A DNA stretch of 40,330 nt from an uncultured Wenzhouxiangella sp. Its GTDB lineage: Bacteria; Pseudomonadota; Gammaproteobacteria; Xanthomonadales; Wenzhouxiangellaceae. Positions 22,765-30,660 of the stretch are shown here, piece after piece. The DNA lies in NCBI GenBank assembly GCA_913057255.1, contig CAJXNU010000004.1, forward strand, positions 1 through 40,330. Direction: 5' to 3'. The notes beneath the pieces were generated by a model that did no database searches, was not told the origin of the DNA, and worked only from the letters and a program-made list of their open reading frames with translations. Positions within the stretch are counted from its first letter, which is position 1. Every line of letters starts with the position of its first letter. The position numbers and the translations under genes are program-made.

Positions 22765-24027
22765 TTAGCGTGATTGCTGTCTTTGGCGATACCGCTCGTA
22801 GAGTGCTCGGCCCTTGACCGCACTGAGATCGTAGGCTTGGCCATCGATCCAGACATGCGTGATCTGTGTCATGGGTTCGAGTGGGTGGCCATTGGCAGCA
22901 AATAAACTGGCACGTTTTCCGACTTCAATGGAGCCCAGCTCCTCATCGACGCCAAGAATCTCGGCAGGCCACAGGGTCACTGACTTAATGGCTGTGTCTA
23001 CATCTAAGCCATGGGCCACTGCAGTACCTGCCTGAAAGGGGAGGTTTCTCGCGTTGGCCACATCCATGCCTCTGGTGGCATCAGCGATGGCAAACTTCAC
23101 ACCCGCCTCGGCCAAACGAGCAGGCGCCACAAAGCTTGAATCATAGGCCTCGTGCCGGCGCATGGGAAGGGCATAGACGTTTTTCAAAATCACTGGGATA
23201 TTGTCTTCGGCCAATCGAGGTGCAATGTGTTGCACATCCGGCGTGGCCACCAAGATGATGTTCTCAAAACCTTGGTCCTGGGCCCAATCAAGCGCTGCTT
23301 CCATCGCATCATAGCGATTGGCATGCAACATCAATGGGACTTCGCCAGCGAGCATTGGGCCGAGTGCTTCGAGCTGATCATTTCTTTTGGGGGCCGGTAA
23401 GCCATTGCTCAGGGAGGCTTCCATGGCTTGATGCCAATGCCGGGCTTGGTCGAGCGTCCGGTTGATGATTTTTAGATCTTCATTGTCAGCGTCATCGACC
23501 GCACCTGGCGGAAATGCGATGTGCATGCCAGCCTGTGGGCGAATCACCATGTCCTCCCAGATCCAGCCATCGAGGTTCATCACGGCAGAGTGGCCGCGGA
23601 TGAGGCCACCACCCGGGATGATATGGGCGCTCAACACGCCGCCGGCGATGCTCGCTGGTAAGAGTTGAGAATCATGGTTCACCGCCACTTCAACATTCAA
23701 GGCGGCGTTGATATTGCCCATCTCTGAGGTATCCACCGTCCCTGAGACCGAGCTGATTTCAGTCAGCCCAAGCTGAGTGGCTGGGTGGACGAAGCCGGGG
23801 TAGAGCTGATGGCCTGTCATATCCACCACCATGGCATCGGCTGGGATCTCAACATCTGTACCCACCGCCTCAATGAAGCCATCTCGAATCACAACGGTGG
23901 CATTGTCGATCGAAGGGGCAGCGATTGGATGGACGGTCGCACCCTGTAGAACAGTGATCTGGGCACTGGCCGACCACGACAAGGCCAGCCCAGTGGCCAA
24001 GAGCAGAGATGCGATTTTAGTTTGCAT
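22765..24027 (-). CDS. Exported amidohydrolase-family protein with degenerate metal site
   Basis: Signal peptide MQTKIASLLLATGLALSWSASA; amidohydrolase beginning and end (VVIRDGFIEAVG.., LYPGFVHPA.., LGSIEVGKRASLFAANGHPLE), but no HxH after YPGF. Confidence 0.88.
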   Translation of the reverse strand: MQTKIASLLLATGLALSWSASAQITVLQGATVHPIAAPSIDNATVVIRDGFIEAVGTDVEIPADAMVVDMTGHQLYPGFVHPATQLGLTEISSVSGTVDTSEMGNINAALNVEVAVNHDSQLLPASIAGGVLSAHIIPGGGLIRGHSAVMNLDGWIWEDMVIRPQAGMHIAFPPGAVDDADNEDLKIINRTLDQARHWHQAMEASLSNGLPAPKRNDQLEALGPMLAGEVPLMLHANRYDAMEAALDWAQDQGFENIILVATPDVQHIAPRLAEDNIPVILKNVYALPMRRHEAYDSSFVAPARLAEAGVKFAIADATRGMDVANARNLPFQAGTAVAHGLDVDTAIKSVTLWPAEILGVDEELGSIEVGKRASLFAANGHPLEPMTQITHVWIDGQAYDLSAVKGRALYERYRQRQQSR

Positions 24028-25516
24028 GGAAAACACAGTATTCATCATGGTCCAATTCCGATGGTCGGTAGCCTGTCAAGTGACGGGCAAAGTTGAAAGT
24101 TTGGCGTTTTGCGGTAGCCGGTGAGTCGGCTGGGTCAGTATCCGTTTCGGTAGCACCAGCGTCATCCTCACCTTGGTTTAGCACCATGGCCATGAGCTCG
24201 GCGCGTTCTGCTTCAAGTGCCTCCTGCATGCGCTGATCCGCTTCCCGATCAAAGTACAACCGACCATCCACCCAAGTTTGGGTGACTTTGCTAAAGGCGC
24301 TCAGTGGGTGCCCATCCCATAAAACCAAATCGGCATCATATCCTTCAGCGATTCGACCAATTTGGTCACCGGCGCCAATCTGATCTGCTGAATAAGCGGT
24401 GATCATTTTGAGCGCTTCATGCGGATCGACACCACCGTAGCGGACGGCTTTGGCAGCATCGAGATTCATGCGTCGAGCCAGCTCTGGGTTGTCAGAGTGC
24501 AGGGCGGTCAACACGCCAGCCTCGTGCATGAGCGCCGGGTTATAGCCAATCGCATCAGTGGCTTCGGCTTTAAAATTCCACCAGTCGATGAAGGTGGAGC
24601 CACCGGCGCCATGCTCGGCCATTTGTGGGGCGATCTTGTAGCCTTCTAAGATGTGCTGCAAGGTCTTAATCCGGAATCCAAAGGATTCGGCGGCTCGCAT
24701 GAGGGCCAAGGCCTCATCGGCGCGGTAGCCATGCGAATGGACGTCAAGTTGTCCATTGATGATCTCAACGATCGCCTCCATTTCGTGATCGGGTCGGGGT
24801 GGAATGCGATTTCTTGCTGCCCGCCCGGTTGGCATGGACTCTTTTGCTTTTTGGTAGTCCGCGGCGGTTTGAAACTTCTCGCGAATGACTTGCTCCACAC
24901 CGGGACGTGTTTGAGGATAGCGCGGTTCTGCAGGTCGCCAGTTGCTTTGCTTAGGGTTCTCGCCCAAAGCAAACTTAATGCCTGGCCGAGCGCCTTCAAA
25001 AATGAGCTCCTCGGGTGAGGCCCCCCAACGCATTTTGATGGTGGCCATTTGACCACCAATGGCATTGGCCGAGCCATGCAAGAGATTGATGGTGGTTACG
25101 CCACCGGCCAGTTGCCGATAGATATTGATCGACTCAGAATCCACCACATCACGAATTCTGACATCGGCGGTGCTGATGCGGGAGGCCTCATTGACGCCAC
25201 CAATAATCGCTGCATGTGAGTGGTTATCCACGATGCCGGGTGTGATGTGATGGTCCGTGCCATCAATTTCAATGGCGCCACGGGGGGCGTCGAGATCGAC
25301 ACCAATAGCGACAATCTTTCCGCGCCTAAAGAGCACATCGGCATTTTCAATGATATCGCCCTCGGTGGCTGGCCAGACCGTGACATTGCGAATGACCACA
25401 GCCTCAGGCTGAGGTGGTTCAGGGCTGTTCCAAGCTTCAATGTCCGGTGTCCATTCGGCAGCATGAGCCGTGACGATGAGACCACACGAAAGAATCAGTG
25501 TAAGTAGGTGTCGCAT
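24017..25516 (-). CDS. Exported amidohydrolase (imidazolonepropionase-like) with intact metal motifs
   Basis: ITPGIVDNHSHAAI, LDVHSHGYRADEAL, LQHILEG, LTALHSDNPELARR, GRIAEGYDADLVLWDGHPL; signal peptide. Confidence 0.93.
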   Translation of the reverse strand: MRHLLTLILSCGLIVTAHAAEWTPDIEAWNSPEPPQPEAVVIRNVTVWPATEGDIIENADVLFRRGKIVAIGVDLDAPRGAIEIDGTDHHITPGIVDNHSHAAIIGGVNEASRISTADVRIRDVVDSESINIYRQLAGGVTTINLLHGSANAIGGQMATIKMRWGASPEELIFEGARPGIKFALGENPKQSNWRPAEPRYPQTRPGVEQVIREKFQTAADYQKAKESMPTGRAARNRIPPRPDHEMEAIVEIINGQLDVHSHGYRADEALALMRAAESFGFRIKTLQHILEGYKIAPQMAEHGAGGSTFIDWWNFKAEATDAIGYNPALMHEAGVLTALHSDNPELARRMNLDAAKAVRYGGVDPHEALKMITAYSADQIGAGDQIGRIAEGYDADLVLWDGHPLSAFSKVTQTWVDGRLYFDREADQRMQEALEAERAELMAMVLNQGEDDAGATETDTDPADSPATAKRQTFNFARHLTGYRPSELDHDEYCVFHAN

Positions 25517-27255
25517 TATTGTGCCTCCCCGACTAGATTGGATGCGGTGGCTTGCTCTGGGCTCGCGGCCGCCACTTGTCTTTGTCCGCGCAACGTGAAC
25601 TCACCGAAAGGCCCCGACCCATTGCCTCGGGCCGAGTCACCATTGATGGTGAGCTTCAAGGTGATGGTGCCGGTGCCACCGAATCGGGAGGAGTCAATGG
25701 TGGCGATCAGTTGATCATCGCTGACTTCGGCGCTGGTTAATGGTGAATCATTGCCCATCACCGATAAAGTGCCTTGGATGTTTGAGGGTGTGCCGGTGAG
25801 AATGAGCTGTCCATCCACATCGCCCATGCCACCCAGCCCGAGCGTGAGCGCCCAAGTGCCGACAGGATCCACCGATGGGGGTTTGATGGCGGCCAATTCA
25901 TACCTCATCCCATCCACCCATACATCGGATATCTTCGGGCTTTCGGAAATTAACTCGCCTTCGGCGACAATCAGATTGGCCATCATCCCAGGTGCGACTT
26001 TGCCTGCCCGGTCGCTCAGCAACAGCCATTGGGCCGGTGCAGTGGTCACCGCGGCCAAAGCAACATCGGGATCGAGCCCTCTGTCGACCGCTTTGGCCAA
26101 GTTTTTTAGGAAGTCTCCGGGTTGGCTCGATCCATGACTGGTAAAAATCATATCCACTCCCGCCTCATGCAAGGTCTTGGGATTGTCTGGCGCTCGATGC
26201 CAATGCCTTAGCGCCTCCAAAGATACGTTCCGGTCGTTTTCATCTTTGACATCGGGGGCATCGGGGAAGTTGATTGGAATGATGTGCAAGACGTCAGTCC
26301 CTGTGATGTCATCGAGTCGTTGATACTCGGCACCATGGCCGACGATGGCCAGCTGCGTTTCATCGAATTGGACAAAGGAAAGAATGCGCAGGGTATCGAG
26401 TAGATCTTGTGACGAGAACACCAAAGGCGTTCCACCATTGAGCGACCGGCCCAGCTCATCCAATCCTTCAAACCATTGAGGGCGGGGTTGGGCGGGGTTG
26501 AGTGCCCAAGCGTTACGCGCCTCGGTTTGCCAAGCGGCATCCGAAAACGTTTGTCGAACCAAGGCCACAGCGCCCATCAGCGAGCTGGGAAATTGCCGGC
26601 GACCAGCACGACCTTCAAAACTGGCAAACTGGCCAAATTCAGGGTCAATGACGTTGTGCGACATGCCTCCTTCACCTAGGTTGGCCACCACGCCACTGCC
26701 ACGCAGCAGACCATGGCTGGGCGCAAATACAGCGGTGGTAAAGCCCGCCCGACGCAGTTGCTCGACCTGGTCTTGAGGCCAGTGTGTGGCACTGATTTTG
26801 GCATCGGGTTTGATGAGTGCATGCCGCCCAGCCGGCGTGGGCGAATCGCTTGAGTCCTCTTGAGGTGACGTGTCGATCTGAAAATGCGGCTCGATCAGTC
26901 CAGCGTAAATGGTGATGGGCGGCTGATCGTCGTCCCGTTCAAATCGGTGAATGCGCGCATCGGCGGGAACTTCGACATTAGCACCAACGGCCTCAATAAT
27001 TCCATCTCGAATCACGACCGTGCCAGATTCAATGATTTCTCCCGGCTCAGTGACAATCCTGACATCAATGATGGCATGTACATTTGGGGACGGTTGGCGA
27101 AGGTCAGCCAATGCAATGGAGCTGACGGCGAGCGATAAGACGGCCACTAACCACCATCGATGGCGAGGTGGCTGTTGGCTTCTATTGCGGTGGATGGTCT
27201 GCAAGACAATCTCCTGAAGTATCAGTCGTTCGGGTGTCGACTGACTATACAACAC
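25516..27255 (-). CDS. Exported amidohydrolase-family protein with degenerate metal site and C-terminal beta-rich extension
   Basis: Hydrophobic signal WWLVAVLSLAVSSIALA; IYAGLIEPHFQIDTS lacks HxH; DRAGKVAPGMMANLIVAEG; C-terminal VGTWALTLGLGGMGDVDGQLILTGTPSNIQGTL. Confidence 0.87.
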   Translation of the reverse strand: MLYSQSTPERLILQEIVLQTIHRNRSQQPPRHRWWLVAVLSLAVSSIALADLRQPSPNVHAIIDVRIVTEPGEIIESGTVVIRDGIIEAVGANVEVPADARIHRFERDDDQPPITIYAGLIEPHFQIDTSPQEDSSDSPTPAGRHALIKPDAKISATHWPQDQVEQLRRAGFTTAVFAPSHGLLRGSGVVANLGEGGMSHNVIDPEFGQFASFEGRAGRRQFPSSLMGAVALVRQTFSDAAWQTEARNAWALNPAQPRPQWFEGLDELGRSLNGGTPLVFSSQDLLDTLRILSFVQFDETQLAIVGHGAEYQRLDDITGTDVLHIIPINFPDAPDVKDENDRNVSLEALRHWHRAPDNPKTLHEAGVDMIFTSHGSSQPGDFLKNLAKAVDRGLDPDVALAAVTTAPAQWLLLSDRAGKVAPGMMANLIVAEGELISESPKISDVWVDGMRYELAAIKPPSVDPVGTWALTLGLGGMGDVDGQLILTGTPSNIQGTLSVMGNDSPLTSAEVSDDQLIATIDSSRFGGTGTITLKLTINGDSARGNGSGPFGEFTLRGQRQVAAASPEQATASNLVGEAQ

Positions 27256-27304
27256 CCAGTGAAAGAATTGCTACGGGAGGCCGGCTTTGCTTTAAGTTTG
27301 GCGC

Positions 27305-28234
27305 TTAAGCGGTTGCGCGTCGGCGCATCATCACTGCACCCCACAGGAGGGGTAGGGCAATCAACCACCCCAGCCACATCATTGGGGATACAAAGGTCTC
27401 AAGGATTTGTAGGATGCCGGTGCCATGACCCATGACCTCATTCGAATCTTCAATGCCCAGTTTAAGACTCAATGGCAATGGGCTCTCGCCAAAACGACGC
27501 GCTGCCCAGCCTAAAGGTTCAAACCCATTGAGCTGCCCAAAGTTAAGAAACCGCCATCCGCTGATGGTCATGCTGATGATGGCCAGTATAGCGATGGCGA
27601 CAAACAGTGGCGAGCGCGGGGCCCATGAAGAGCAAAATAGCAAATAGGCATACACAGGGAGTAACCAAAAGCCCTGAGCCATCAATGCAAGAAGAAAGGT
27701 GAAAGCATGACCCAGGACCAAATCAGCCCGAAATAAAAATGGCCAAATGGGCAGATCGGCCATCAGTCCATAAACCGAGATGATGGATAGGAATAGGAGC
27801 TGAGTGATGGATAGGAAGAACCAATAGCTCAATGGGAAGATCACAACCGCCATCACGATCTTGGAAATCACGGTGAGTCGATCAGACACCGGGAGGCTTT
27901 TCCAAAACAAGATGGAGCGATCTTTTCTTTCATCAAAAAGGGCGTGGCCCACATAAAAAATAATCACCAAGCTCAAAGGAATAAAAAAAGGTATGGTCAG
28001 GGCGGAGAGCACGGCGCGCGTGACCTGATATCGATCCTCAATGCTCATGTCCCCAGGAAGGGCAGCCAAGCCCGTCATGCCATCGCTGTTGAGACGAAAT
28101 GCGATGTCGTTGGAGAACAGCAGGGTACCCAGTACCAGGGCAATTAAGACGGTGCCGACAATAACCGGCAGCCAAAGGCAGGTGCCTTTGTTTTCTAGGA
28201 TCTCTTTCCTAAGTAATGTGATTAGTGCGCTCAT
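27305..28234 (-). CDS. ABC transporter permease (ABC-2 type)
   Basis: Multiple hydrophobic helices; coupled (ATGA-type overlap) to an ABC ATPase gene. Confidence 0.85.
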   Translation of the reverse strand: MSALITLLRKEILENKGTCLWLPVIVGTVLIALVLGTLLFSNDIAFRLNSDGMTGLAALPGDMSIEDRYQVTRAVLSALTIPFFIPLSLVIIFYVGHALFDERKDRSILFWKSLPVSDRLTVISKIVMAVVIFPLSYWFFLSITQLLFLSIISVYGLMADLPIWPFLFRADLVLGHAFTFLLALMAQGFWLLPVYAYLLFCSSWAPRSPLFVAIAILAIISMTISGWRFLNFGQLNGFEPLGWAARRFGESPLPLSLKLGIEDSNEVMGHGTGILQILETFVSPMMWLGWLIALPLLWGAVMMRRRATA

Positions 28235-29118
28235 GTGAGGCTCTCCTGATTGGGCTGGCCCATCAAGGCGACAAATAAATCCGCAATGCTGGGTTGGCGC
28301 ACATCACCGAGCGAGTGCAGGAGACTAGGATTCTTGTCCTGAAACAATAAAATGTGTCGGCCCATGACGACTCGCTCGGCAATAGGGTGATGCTCTTTGG
28401 CTGCCGCTAGCTGATCTGATTTGACTTCTAACTCAACATAGCGCGCGGCGATGTCTTCCATCGACGCATCCAAAACCAATTGGCCATTCTTAATAAAGAT
28501 CAAATCGGTCAGGATGTGCTCGATCTCCTCGGCCTGGTGTGTGGTGATTAAGATGGTGCGATGTTCGTTGAAATAGTCGTTGAGTAAATTCTCGTAAAAC
28601 TTCTTCCTAAACAACAAATCAAGGCCCAATGTAGGCTCATCTAAGACCAAGAGGTCGGCATCGATGGCCATGACCAAGGCCAAATGCAGTTGCACCACCA
28701 TGCCACGAGACAAGTTCCCAATTTTTGCATCCAGCCGGACATTGGATTGAGCCAGATAAGCCATGCATTTTTCTCGGCTGAATCGGGGATGCAGGCCCTG
28801 GGTGATGTCGATCATCTGAGAAACCTTGGCCCAGCGAGGCAATACGGCGACATCGGCAATAAAGCATACCCGCTCCATCAGCTGATCACGCTGAGTACTG
28901 GGGTCTAGACCGAGAACTTGGAGTTCGCCTTTGTAGGGTGTTAGTCCAAGAATTGATTTTAGGGCGGTGGTTTTGCCCGATCCATTGGGGCCAATGAGGC
29001 CCACGATTCGACCCGGTGCGATATCGAGTTGGATGCCGTCGAGTGCTTTGATTCGTCCACGCTGATAGTGGCGACTTAAGTCATTGGCCTTAATGATCGC
29101 TTGAGTGGCTGAGTTCAT
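28231..29118 (-). CDS. ABC transporter ATP-binding protein
   Basis: Walker A GLIGPNGSGKTTALKS; NLSRGMVVQLHLALVMAIDADLLVLDEPTLGLD. Confidence 0.96.
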   Translation of the reverse strand: MNSATQAIIKANDLSRHYQRGRIKALDGIQLDIAPGRIVGLIGPNGSGKTTALKSILGLTPYKGELQVLGLDPSTQRDQLMERVCFIADVAVLPRWAKVSQMIDITQGLHPRFSREKCMAYLAQSNVRLDAKIGNLSRGMVVQLHLALVMAIDADLLVLDEPTLGLDLLFRKKFYENLLNDYFNEHRTILITTHQAEEIEHILTDLIFIKNGQLVLDASMEDIAARYVELEVKSDQLAAAKEHHPIAERVVMGRHILLFQDKNPSLLHSLGDVRQPSIADLFVALMGQPNQESLT

Positions 29119-29489
29119 CCGTTTTGTGCCTTTTTCGTGGATGGGGGGAGGGGGAGCTCATCCCATGACAAATTCAATTGTTGGATTTGATCGACGATTT
29201 GTGGCCAAACAGTGGTTAAAAAGCGCGTGCGCTCATCGTGTAGCAATTGATCCTTCGCACCGATTTTGATCCGCATGCCGATGCCACGCTCGGCCGCGAC
29301 CAGGCCTTCATCCACAAGGATTTGGTAAGCCTTAGAGACAGTGATTGGGTTGACTTGCAGATCAATGGCCACCTGGCGAACGGAGGGCAACAGGTCGCCC
29401 TCATTGAGTTCACCGTCTAATATATTGGCCACCGTCCGATCACGGAGTTGCTGGTAAATCGGGGTGCTTTGATCCCAGGGCAGGCTCAC
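29115..29489 (-). CDS. GntR-family regulator, YtrA subfamily
   Basis: STPIYQQLRDRTVANILDGELNEGDLLPSVRQVAIDLQVNPITVSKAYQILVDEGLVAAERGIGMRI; short C-terminal domain; coupled to the ABC ATPase. Confidence 0.93.
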   Translation of the reverse strand: MSLPWDQSTPIYQQLRDRTVANILDGELNEGDLLPSVRQVAIDLQVNPITVSKAYQILVDEGLVAAERGIGMRIKIGAKDQLLHDERTRFLTTVWPQIVDQIQQLNLSWDELPLPPSTKKAQNG

Positions 29490-29524: not shown

Positions 29525-29803
29525 TTATTCGCTGCGCGGCTCTGGCTTGGCCCAGGGCAACAGGCGGGGCAAGTCAAAGCGGATCCGAGATGGACTGACT
29601 GCTTTGGCGCTTTGCTGCTCAGTGTGGGTGAGTGCATCCGCTGTCTGTGACTGCTCAGTTTGAACATTGCCAAGCAACACTGGGGCCTCATCGCTGCCCT
29701 GATGCAGATCAACATAGAAAGCAAGCGCCATCGAGACGCCGGCTGCCAAGATCGCTAGATGATGCGGAATTCTCAGCTTTTTTCGAGTGGTGGCAGGCAA
29801 CAT
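29525..29803 (-). CDS. Small single-pass membrane protein, first gene of the GntR/ABC operon
   Basis: 92 aa, TM segment HLAILAAGVSMALAFYV; Shine-Dalgarno CAGGAG before ATG; predicted promoter/operator immediately upstream. Confidence 0.65.
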   Translation of the reverse strand: MLPATTRKKLRIPHHLAILAAGVSMALAFYVDLHQGSDEAPVLLGNVQTEQSQTADALTHTEQQSAKAVSPSRIRFDLPRLLPWAKPEPRSE

Positions 29804-29819
29804 GGTTGACTCCTGTACT

Positions 29820-29843
29820 GGTGTTGTAGTGAACTATAACACC
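29820..29843. promoter_or_regulatory. Candidate YtrA-type GntR operator
   Basis: GGTGTTGTAGTGAACTATAACACC, 24-bp inverted repeat with one mismatched pair; fits GGTG-N16-CACC. Confidence 0.75.
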
Positions 29844-29861
29844 GGGGCTCAGAAAAATCAA
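29833..29861 (-). promoter_or_regulatory. Candidate sigma70 promoter for the small protein/GntR/ABC operon
   Basis: Minus strand TTGATT-N17-TATAGT; -10 lies inside the palindrome. Confidence 0.6.
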
Positions 29862-29955: not shown

Positions 29956-30660
29956 ATGTTTAAAAAGACGCAGCTGGCCCTCGCAACCGCTTTGGTGCTT
30001 GGCAGTGCCTCTACCTTGGTCTCGGCGAATGAGCTTGAGACACCAGAGGATCGTTTGAGCTACACCATTGGCATGGACATCGGTCAATCACTCGGTGAGC
30101 AGGACATGACACTCAATGTGGATCTCTTAGTGGCCGGCCTTCGTGCTGCTTATGCCGGTGAGGAGACTTTACTCACTCAAGAAGAGGCATTGGCTGAGCG
30201 CGAGGCGTTCATGGAGCGTCGCCAGGCCGAGATGGCACAAGCCATGAACCGCGAGGCAGAAGCGAATTTGGCCGAGGGTGAAGCGTTTTTGGCACAGAAC
30301 GCTCAAAATGAGGGTGTCCAAGTGACCGAATCGGGCCTTCAATACCGTGTGATTGAGCCAGGTGAGGGCGCGCAACCCAGCGAAACTGACCGCGTGACAG
30401 TGCATTATCGTGGCACTTTGATCAACGGCACAGAGTTTGATAGCTCGTATGCCCGCAATCAGCCGGCTACCTTTGCGCTCAATCAAGTCATCCCCGGTTG
30501 GACTGAGGGCGTGCAGTTGATGCGTGAAGGCGCAACCTATCAGTTTTTCATCCCAGCCGATTTGGCCTATGGCGCCGAAGGCCGCCCGGGCCCCATTGGC
30601 CCGAATGCCACCTTGATCTTTGATGTCGAATTGCTCGAAGTGGAATCGACCGATTCTTAA
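29956..30660 (+). CDS. FKBP-type peptidyl-prolyl cis-trans isomerase (FkpA/Mip-like, periplasmic)
   Basis: Signal peptide ending VSANE; LSYTIGMDIGQSL dimerisation region; VTVHYRGTLINGTEFDSSYARNQPATFALNQVIPGWTEGVQLM. Confidence 0.95.
   Translation: MFKKTQLALATALVLGSASTLVSANELETPEDRLSYTIGMDIGQSLGEQDMTLNVDLLVAGLRAAYAGEETLLTQEEALAEREAFMERRQAEMAQAMNREAEANLAEGEAFLAQNAQNEGVQVTESGLQYRVIEPGEGAQPSETDRVTVHYRGTLINGTEFDSSYARNQPATFALNQVIPGWTEGVQLMREGATYQFFIPADLAYGAEGRPGPIGPNATLIFDVELLEVESTDS

Follow-up and report, generated by a model that had tools for sequence, protein, structure and literature searches.

Does the palindrome that stands before a gntR-ABC operon serve as the operator by which the GntR regulator controls its own synthesis, and which other genes may be controlled from the same kind of site? 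These questions are raised by a stretch of 40,330 nucleotides, here called the window, in which a minus-strand operon has the order small ORF, gntR, ABC ATPase gene and gene of a membrane subunit.

The palindrome and its chance expectation

The candidate operator is the 24-bp palindromic sequence GGTGTTGTAGTGAACTATAACACC at positions 29820 to 29843 (no strand assigned), which reads GGTGTTATAGTTCACTACAACACC on the minus strand (29843-29820) and for which an earlier note on this DNA had given sequence and coordinates exactly. Ten of the 12 position pairs of this dyad match, the mismatched ones being 7/18 and the central 12/13, so that the claim of arms matching at all but one pair is right when the centre is ignored and wrong otherwise. 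Between the end of the operator and the ATG of a 92-aa ORF lie 16 nt, which contain the Shine-Dalgarno sequence AGGAG (29810-29814, minus strand). The minus-strand promoter TTGATT-N17-TATAGT that had been proposed was found again by a mechanical promoter scan, with its -35 hexamer at 29856-29861 and its -10 hexamer at 29833-29838, i.e., inside the operator. Since the scan gives two promoters of this kind for the region where shuffled sequences lead one to expect 2.7, the promoter match is not significant by itself.

The pattern GGTG-N16-CACC, to which the palindrome had been fitted, is indeed present and has a published precedent. In Xanthomonas citri it is the motif of a YtrA-like regulator (Zhou et al. 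2017, quoted in PMC6746942), and to the extent of that quotation the Xanthomonas motif that the earlier note had named for a YtrA-subfamily regulator is confirmed. The bare pattern is, however, uninformative, being too loose to identify sites or to scan genomes: it has two matches in the window against 0.85 expected, and 162 genome-wide against 121 for a reversed control, which is a weak enrichment. When 12 bases are specified, as in GGTGTT-N12-AACACC, 0.002 matches are expected in the window, and there is exactly one exact match in the 2.09 Mb genome. Thirteen sites in the genome lie within one mismatch of this form, and the extended motif GGTGT-N2-TAnTnnAnTA-N2-ACACC fits the focal one only. 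In this genome, therefore, a single site is convincing by the scan that the earlier note had asked for, and on the comparative evidence the conserved inner half-sites TAnT and AnTA are needed to identify operator sites.

Operator and promoter among relatives

To see how the extended motif behaves outside the window, consider scans of whole genomes in which a control motif was run alongside and, in the family, up to one mismatch was allowed. Of 43 family genomes, 38 contain the extended motif, as a rule in one copy, and the control gave a single match; for the order the figures are 263 of 300 genomes and 78 of 85 genera, against three genomes with a control match. Relatives of gntR were found in 41 of the 43 family genomes, and the site lies about 250-360 bp before gntR in all 29 family loci that have upstream sequence. 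The five family genomes without a motif match comprise two without gntR (G039 and G042), one in which gntR stands at a contig end (G005), and two with sites that carry two mismatches (G007 and G008). The exact 24-mer of the window is found again in other families.

The tabulated sites give the form GGTGT-N2-TA[CG]TnnA[CG]TA-N2-ACACC, and 14 of the 24 columns are invariant among 39 of them; this invariance is partly by construction, because the pattern by which sites were picked fixes many of the columns. Judged by its comparative footprint, the candidate operator is far beyond chance. The motif of the earlier note has in this way been turned into a precise operator definition valid across a bacterial order, in which the inner TAnT/AnTA half-sites are newly defined and added to the published GGTG-N16-CACC form.

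A sigma-70-like promoter with at least nine of 12 matches and with its -10 hexamer inside the operator is present at 27 of the 29 family loci, compared with 23 of 3000 random pseudo-sites, and the spacer is 17 nt in 27 family loci. For most of the family, the -10 hexamer begins at operator position 11; position 6 is its starting point in the window, in the nearest relative and in two others. The overlap is kept though the register differs, and this fits occlusion of the -10 hexamer. Most relatives have a stronger -35 hexamer than the TTGATT of the window, the aligned hexamers of relatives being TTGACT, TTGACA or TTGCAT, and this counts against the explanation that we prefer below.

A natural loss adds to the picture. 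In the genome G042, which is 98% complete, the isomerase and amidohydrolase genes of the flanks are present, but there is no gntR match genome-wide, the locus is devoid of ABC genes, and the operator is absent. What stands between the flanks is a homologue of the small ORF, 80 aa long, preceded by a TATACT hexamer that lacks the palindrome. G042 has thus lost operator and regulator together and retained the small gene.

The regulator and the proposed control

The gntR gene (29115-29489, minus strand, GTG start) encodes a 124-aa protein with a GntR domain (PF00392) at residues 12-74, scoring 47.8 bits against a cut-off of 27, and 3TQN matches it over nearly its full length (E 1.5e-31). The predicted structure has a winged helix followed by one long helix (78-104) and little else, and the folds nearest to it are 3TQN, the Corynebacterium glutamicum structures 2EK5 and 2DU9, proteins from Oenococcus and Listeria, and the Sulfolobus YtrA 6SBS. 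The protein thus has the reduced helical C-terminal part of about 50 residues, and lacks a large effector domain, as expected of the YtrA subfamily. Another trait of this subfamily is an operon shared with ABC transporter genes, most YtrA regulons being one such operon with a single long palindrome (PMC4494728). In the window, gntR overlaps by 4 bp the gene of an ABC transporter ATPase (28231-29118, minus strand; Pfam ABC_tran), with synteny in relatives, and the ATPase gene overlaps by 4 bp the gene of a putative ABC membrane subunit of 309 aa (27305-28234, minus strand), which keeps its position after the ATPase and for which a Pfam search gave no match. Long palindromic sites with distant half-sites are a third trait of the subfamily (PMC4494728, PMC6746942), and a site of about 24 bp with distant GT/AC half-sites precedes the operon here. 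As would be expected of an orthologue of the X. citri regulator, GGTG-N16-CACC is present at the operon of the regulator itself. By sequence and structural model, the regulator is YtrA-type.

The 24-mer is very probably the autorepression operator of a YtrA-type dimer, which is a known kind of control. Binding of the regulator, repression, the direction of control and the effector are what we infer, and the scheme would be as follows. A dimer of the 124-aa protein would bind GGTGT-N2-TAnT and the mirror image of it, half-sites that lie far apart, and so cover the -10 hexamer together with the predicted start point. RNA polymerase would then be unable to use the promoter, because the bound dimer covers both, and the whole operon from the small ORF through gntR and the ATPase gene to the permease gene would be repressed, the regulator's own gene included. 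A signal, probably a substrate of the exporter or envelope stress, would release the protein from the operator, and the transporter would be made. The design of the autorepression type that the earlier note had proposed stands up well: the operator over the operon's -10 hexamer is conserved in the family, the motif is conserved across the order, and the regulator is YtrA-type.

Repression alone is not guaranteed by these arguments, because HpaR1, a YtrA-subfamily regulator of Xanthomonas campestris, autorepresses and also activates other genes (PMC4730234). The regulator might accordingly bind here and control in both directions, or activate, having among its targets the FKBP-type isomerase gene that begins at 29956 and runs divergently; such a divergent arrangement of gene and operator holds in the window and at most of the family loci examined. 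The operator, however, covers the -10 hexamer of the gntR operon and is 112 bp away from the start of the isomerase gene, G042 keeps the isomerase gene without operator and regulator, and at four loci (L111, L102, L217 and L218) no isomerase gene was found adjoining the site. As divergent control is also very rare in YtrA regulons (PMC4494728), control of this kind is improbable. Alternatively, the palindrome could have no regulatory meaning and be a dyad arisen by chance or an RNA hairpin, and chance alone often yields the loose GGTG-N16-CACC pattern; but conservation is position-specific across the family and the motif is kept across the order, and by this footprint the idea is effectively refuted. 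Moreover, the predicted transcript starts downstream of most of the dyad, the scan called no terminator-like site at this place, and the probability left for a meaningless dyad is negligible.

The regulon might also be wider in this organism, with the amidohydrolase genes brought in by the second GGTG-N16-CACC match of the window (27233-27256, no strand assigned). A TATAGT hexamer overlaps this match, which differs from GGTGTT-N12-AACACC at one position but lacks the conserved inner half-sites (motif score -5.3), and a site is absent from all 30 amidohydrolase loci. G042, without gntR, shares only its -10 side GACTATACAACACC, the minus strand of which contains TATAGT. With this score and without conservation, the match was rejected as a shared operator and is taken as a decoy, and membership of the amidohydrolase genes in the regulon is very unlikely. 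Two amidohydrolase-like genes follow the operon at 24017-27204 (minus strand), with synteny in several relatives, even in G042 without the gntR-ABC cassette; the first of them probably starts at a TTG near 27204 rather than at the GTG that the ORF list gives.

Autorepression, the reading favoured here, has parallels in several characterised systems. The X. citri regulator shares motif, spacing and YtrA type, as far as it is described in PMC6746942, and the inner TAnT/AnTA half-sites are what the present analysis defines in addition. PmtR of Staphylococcus aureus, also YtrA-type, represses the exporter operon to which its gene belongs, by way of a site that overlaps the start point (PMC5080381). 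The likeness lies in a YtrA-type regulator and ABC exporter genes in one operon, with a site overlapping the transcript start, and the best NCBIfam matches of the window's proteins include PmtR and PmtA, though far below the equivalog cut-offs (54.5 against 200 bits for PmtR, 132.1 against 350 bits for PmtA). In contrast to the window operon, pmtR has no small ORF before it in the cited description, and the PSM peptides that are the effector of the S. aureus system are not to be assumed for the window regulator. YtrA of Bacillus subtilis and CGL2947 of C. glutamicum (2DU9/2EK5), from another species group, have the same winged helix with a short helical C-terminal fold and long dyads with distant half-sites; the inverted repeats of the B. 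subtilis dyads, 13 bp apart (PMC4730234), differ from the window operator. YtrASa of Sulfolobus acidocaldarius (6SBS), with a YtrA-type fold and a restricted regulon, represses its own operon, which encodes a membrane protein, but its site is a compact 14-bp core, whereas the window operator is a 24-bp dyad.

The small first gene and likely targets in relatives

The operon begins with the gene of a 92-aa small protein (29525-29803, minus strand), which has homologues at the same place in relatives and matched nothing in Pfam or NCBIfam. Because substitutions between close pairs fall mainly in third positions, the small ORF is coding (one row, L103, was left out of the alignment). The protein has one hydrophobic segment near the N-terminus, and on this sequence evidence the first gene of the operon is that of a conserved small membrane-type protein, a little-studied part to which the operator has led. 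That this gene survives the loss of regulator and transporter in G042 suggests a function of its own; in the relative without gntR, ABC genes and operator, the small membrane-type ORF, to be compared with 29525-29803 of the window, is at L144:5816-6058 (minus strand). In gammaproteobacterial loci from a separate collection (L086-L092), an operator-like dyad stands just before gntR, with no small ORF between.

In the window's genome the extended motif occurs at the focal site only, and as judged from the motif the regulon there seems to be one operon. The X. citri YtrA-like regulator reportedly has three directly regulated operons, and its motif is said to occur in Stenotrophomonas, Pseudoxanthomonas and Frateuria.

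In several genera the operator precedes the gene of a HlyD/CusB-type periplasmic adaptor (L094, L095, L098, L099, L101, L104, L212 and L154-L170). Downstream genes in the relatives were re-translated, as simple ORF picking in GC-rich genomes often took antisense frames, and where readable, the gene after the adaptor begins like an RND pump, as judged by a look at its sequence only. Adaptor relatives of at least 43% identity have the site in 17 of 17 cases, with scores of 6.3-28.8, and eight more distant adaptors of about 32% identity score -3.0 or less; at the 43% identity threshold, the window's genome has no adaptor of this type. An RND-efflux operon is thus a likely second target of the regulator in many relatives, to go by site and gene order, and forms another little-studied part to which the operator points. 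When these strands are put together, the small protein might be an unrecognised sensor or tuner of the YtrA response across the order, with the operator linking ABC operon and RND efflux pump as one envelope-export regulon; this joint reading is tentative, and we hold it to be somewhat doubtful.

Two minor observations concern other sites. In family f2 of the order (L206, L207, L209 and L210), second operator sites stand before genes for apparently exported proteins that contain repeats, e.g., VVDLPAVTVRPDA or TLAAVQVRPSADQ. A second gntR-ABC gene set, paralogous to the first, has an operator with one mismatch nearby in G001 (L097:3012-3035), a hint at shared regulation or cross-regulation.
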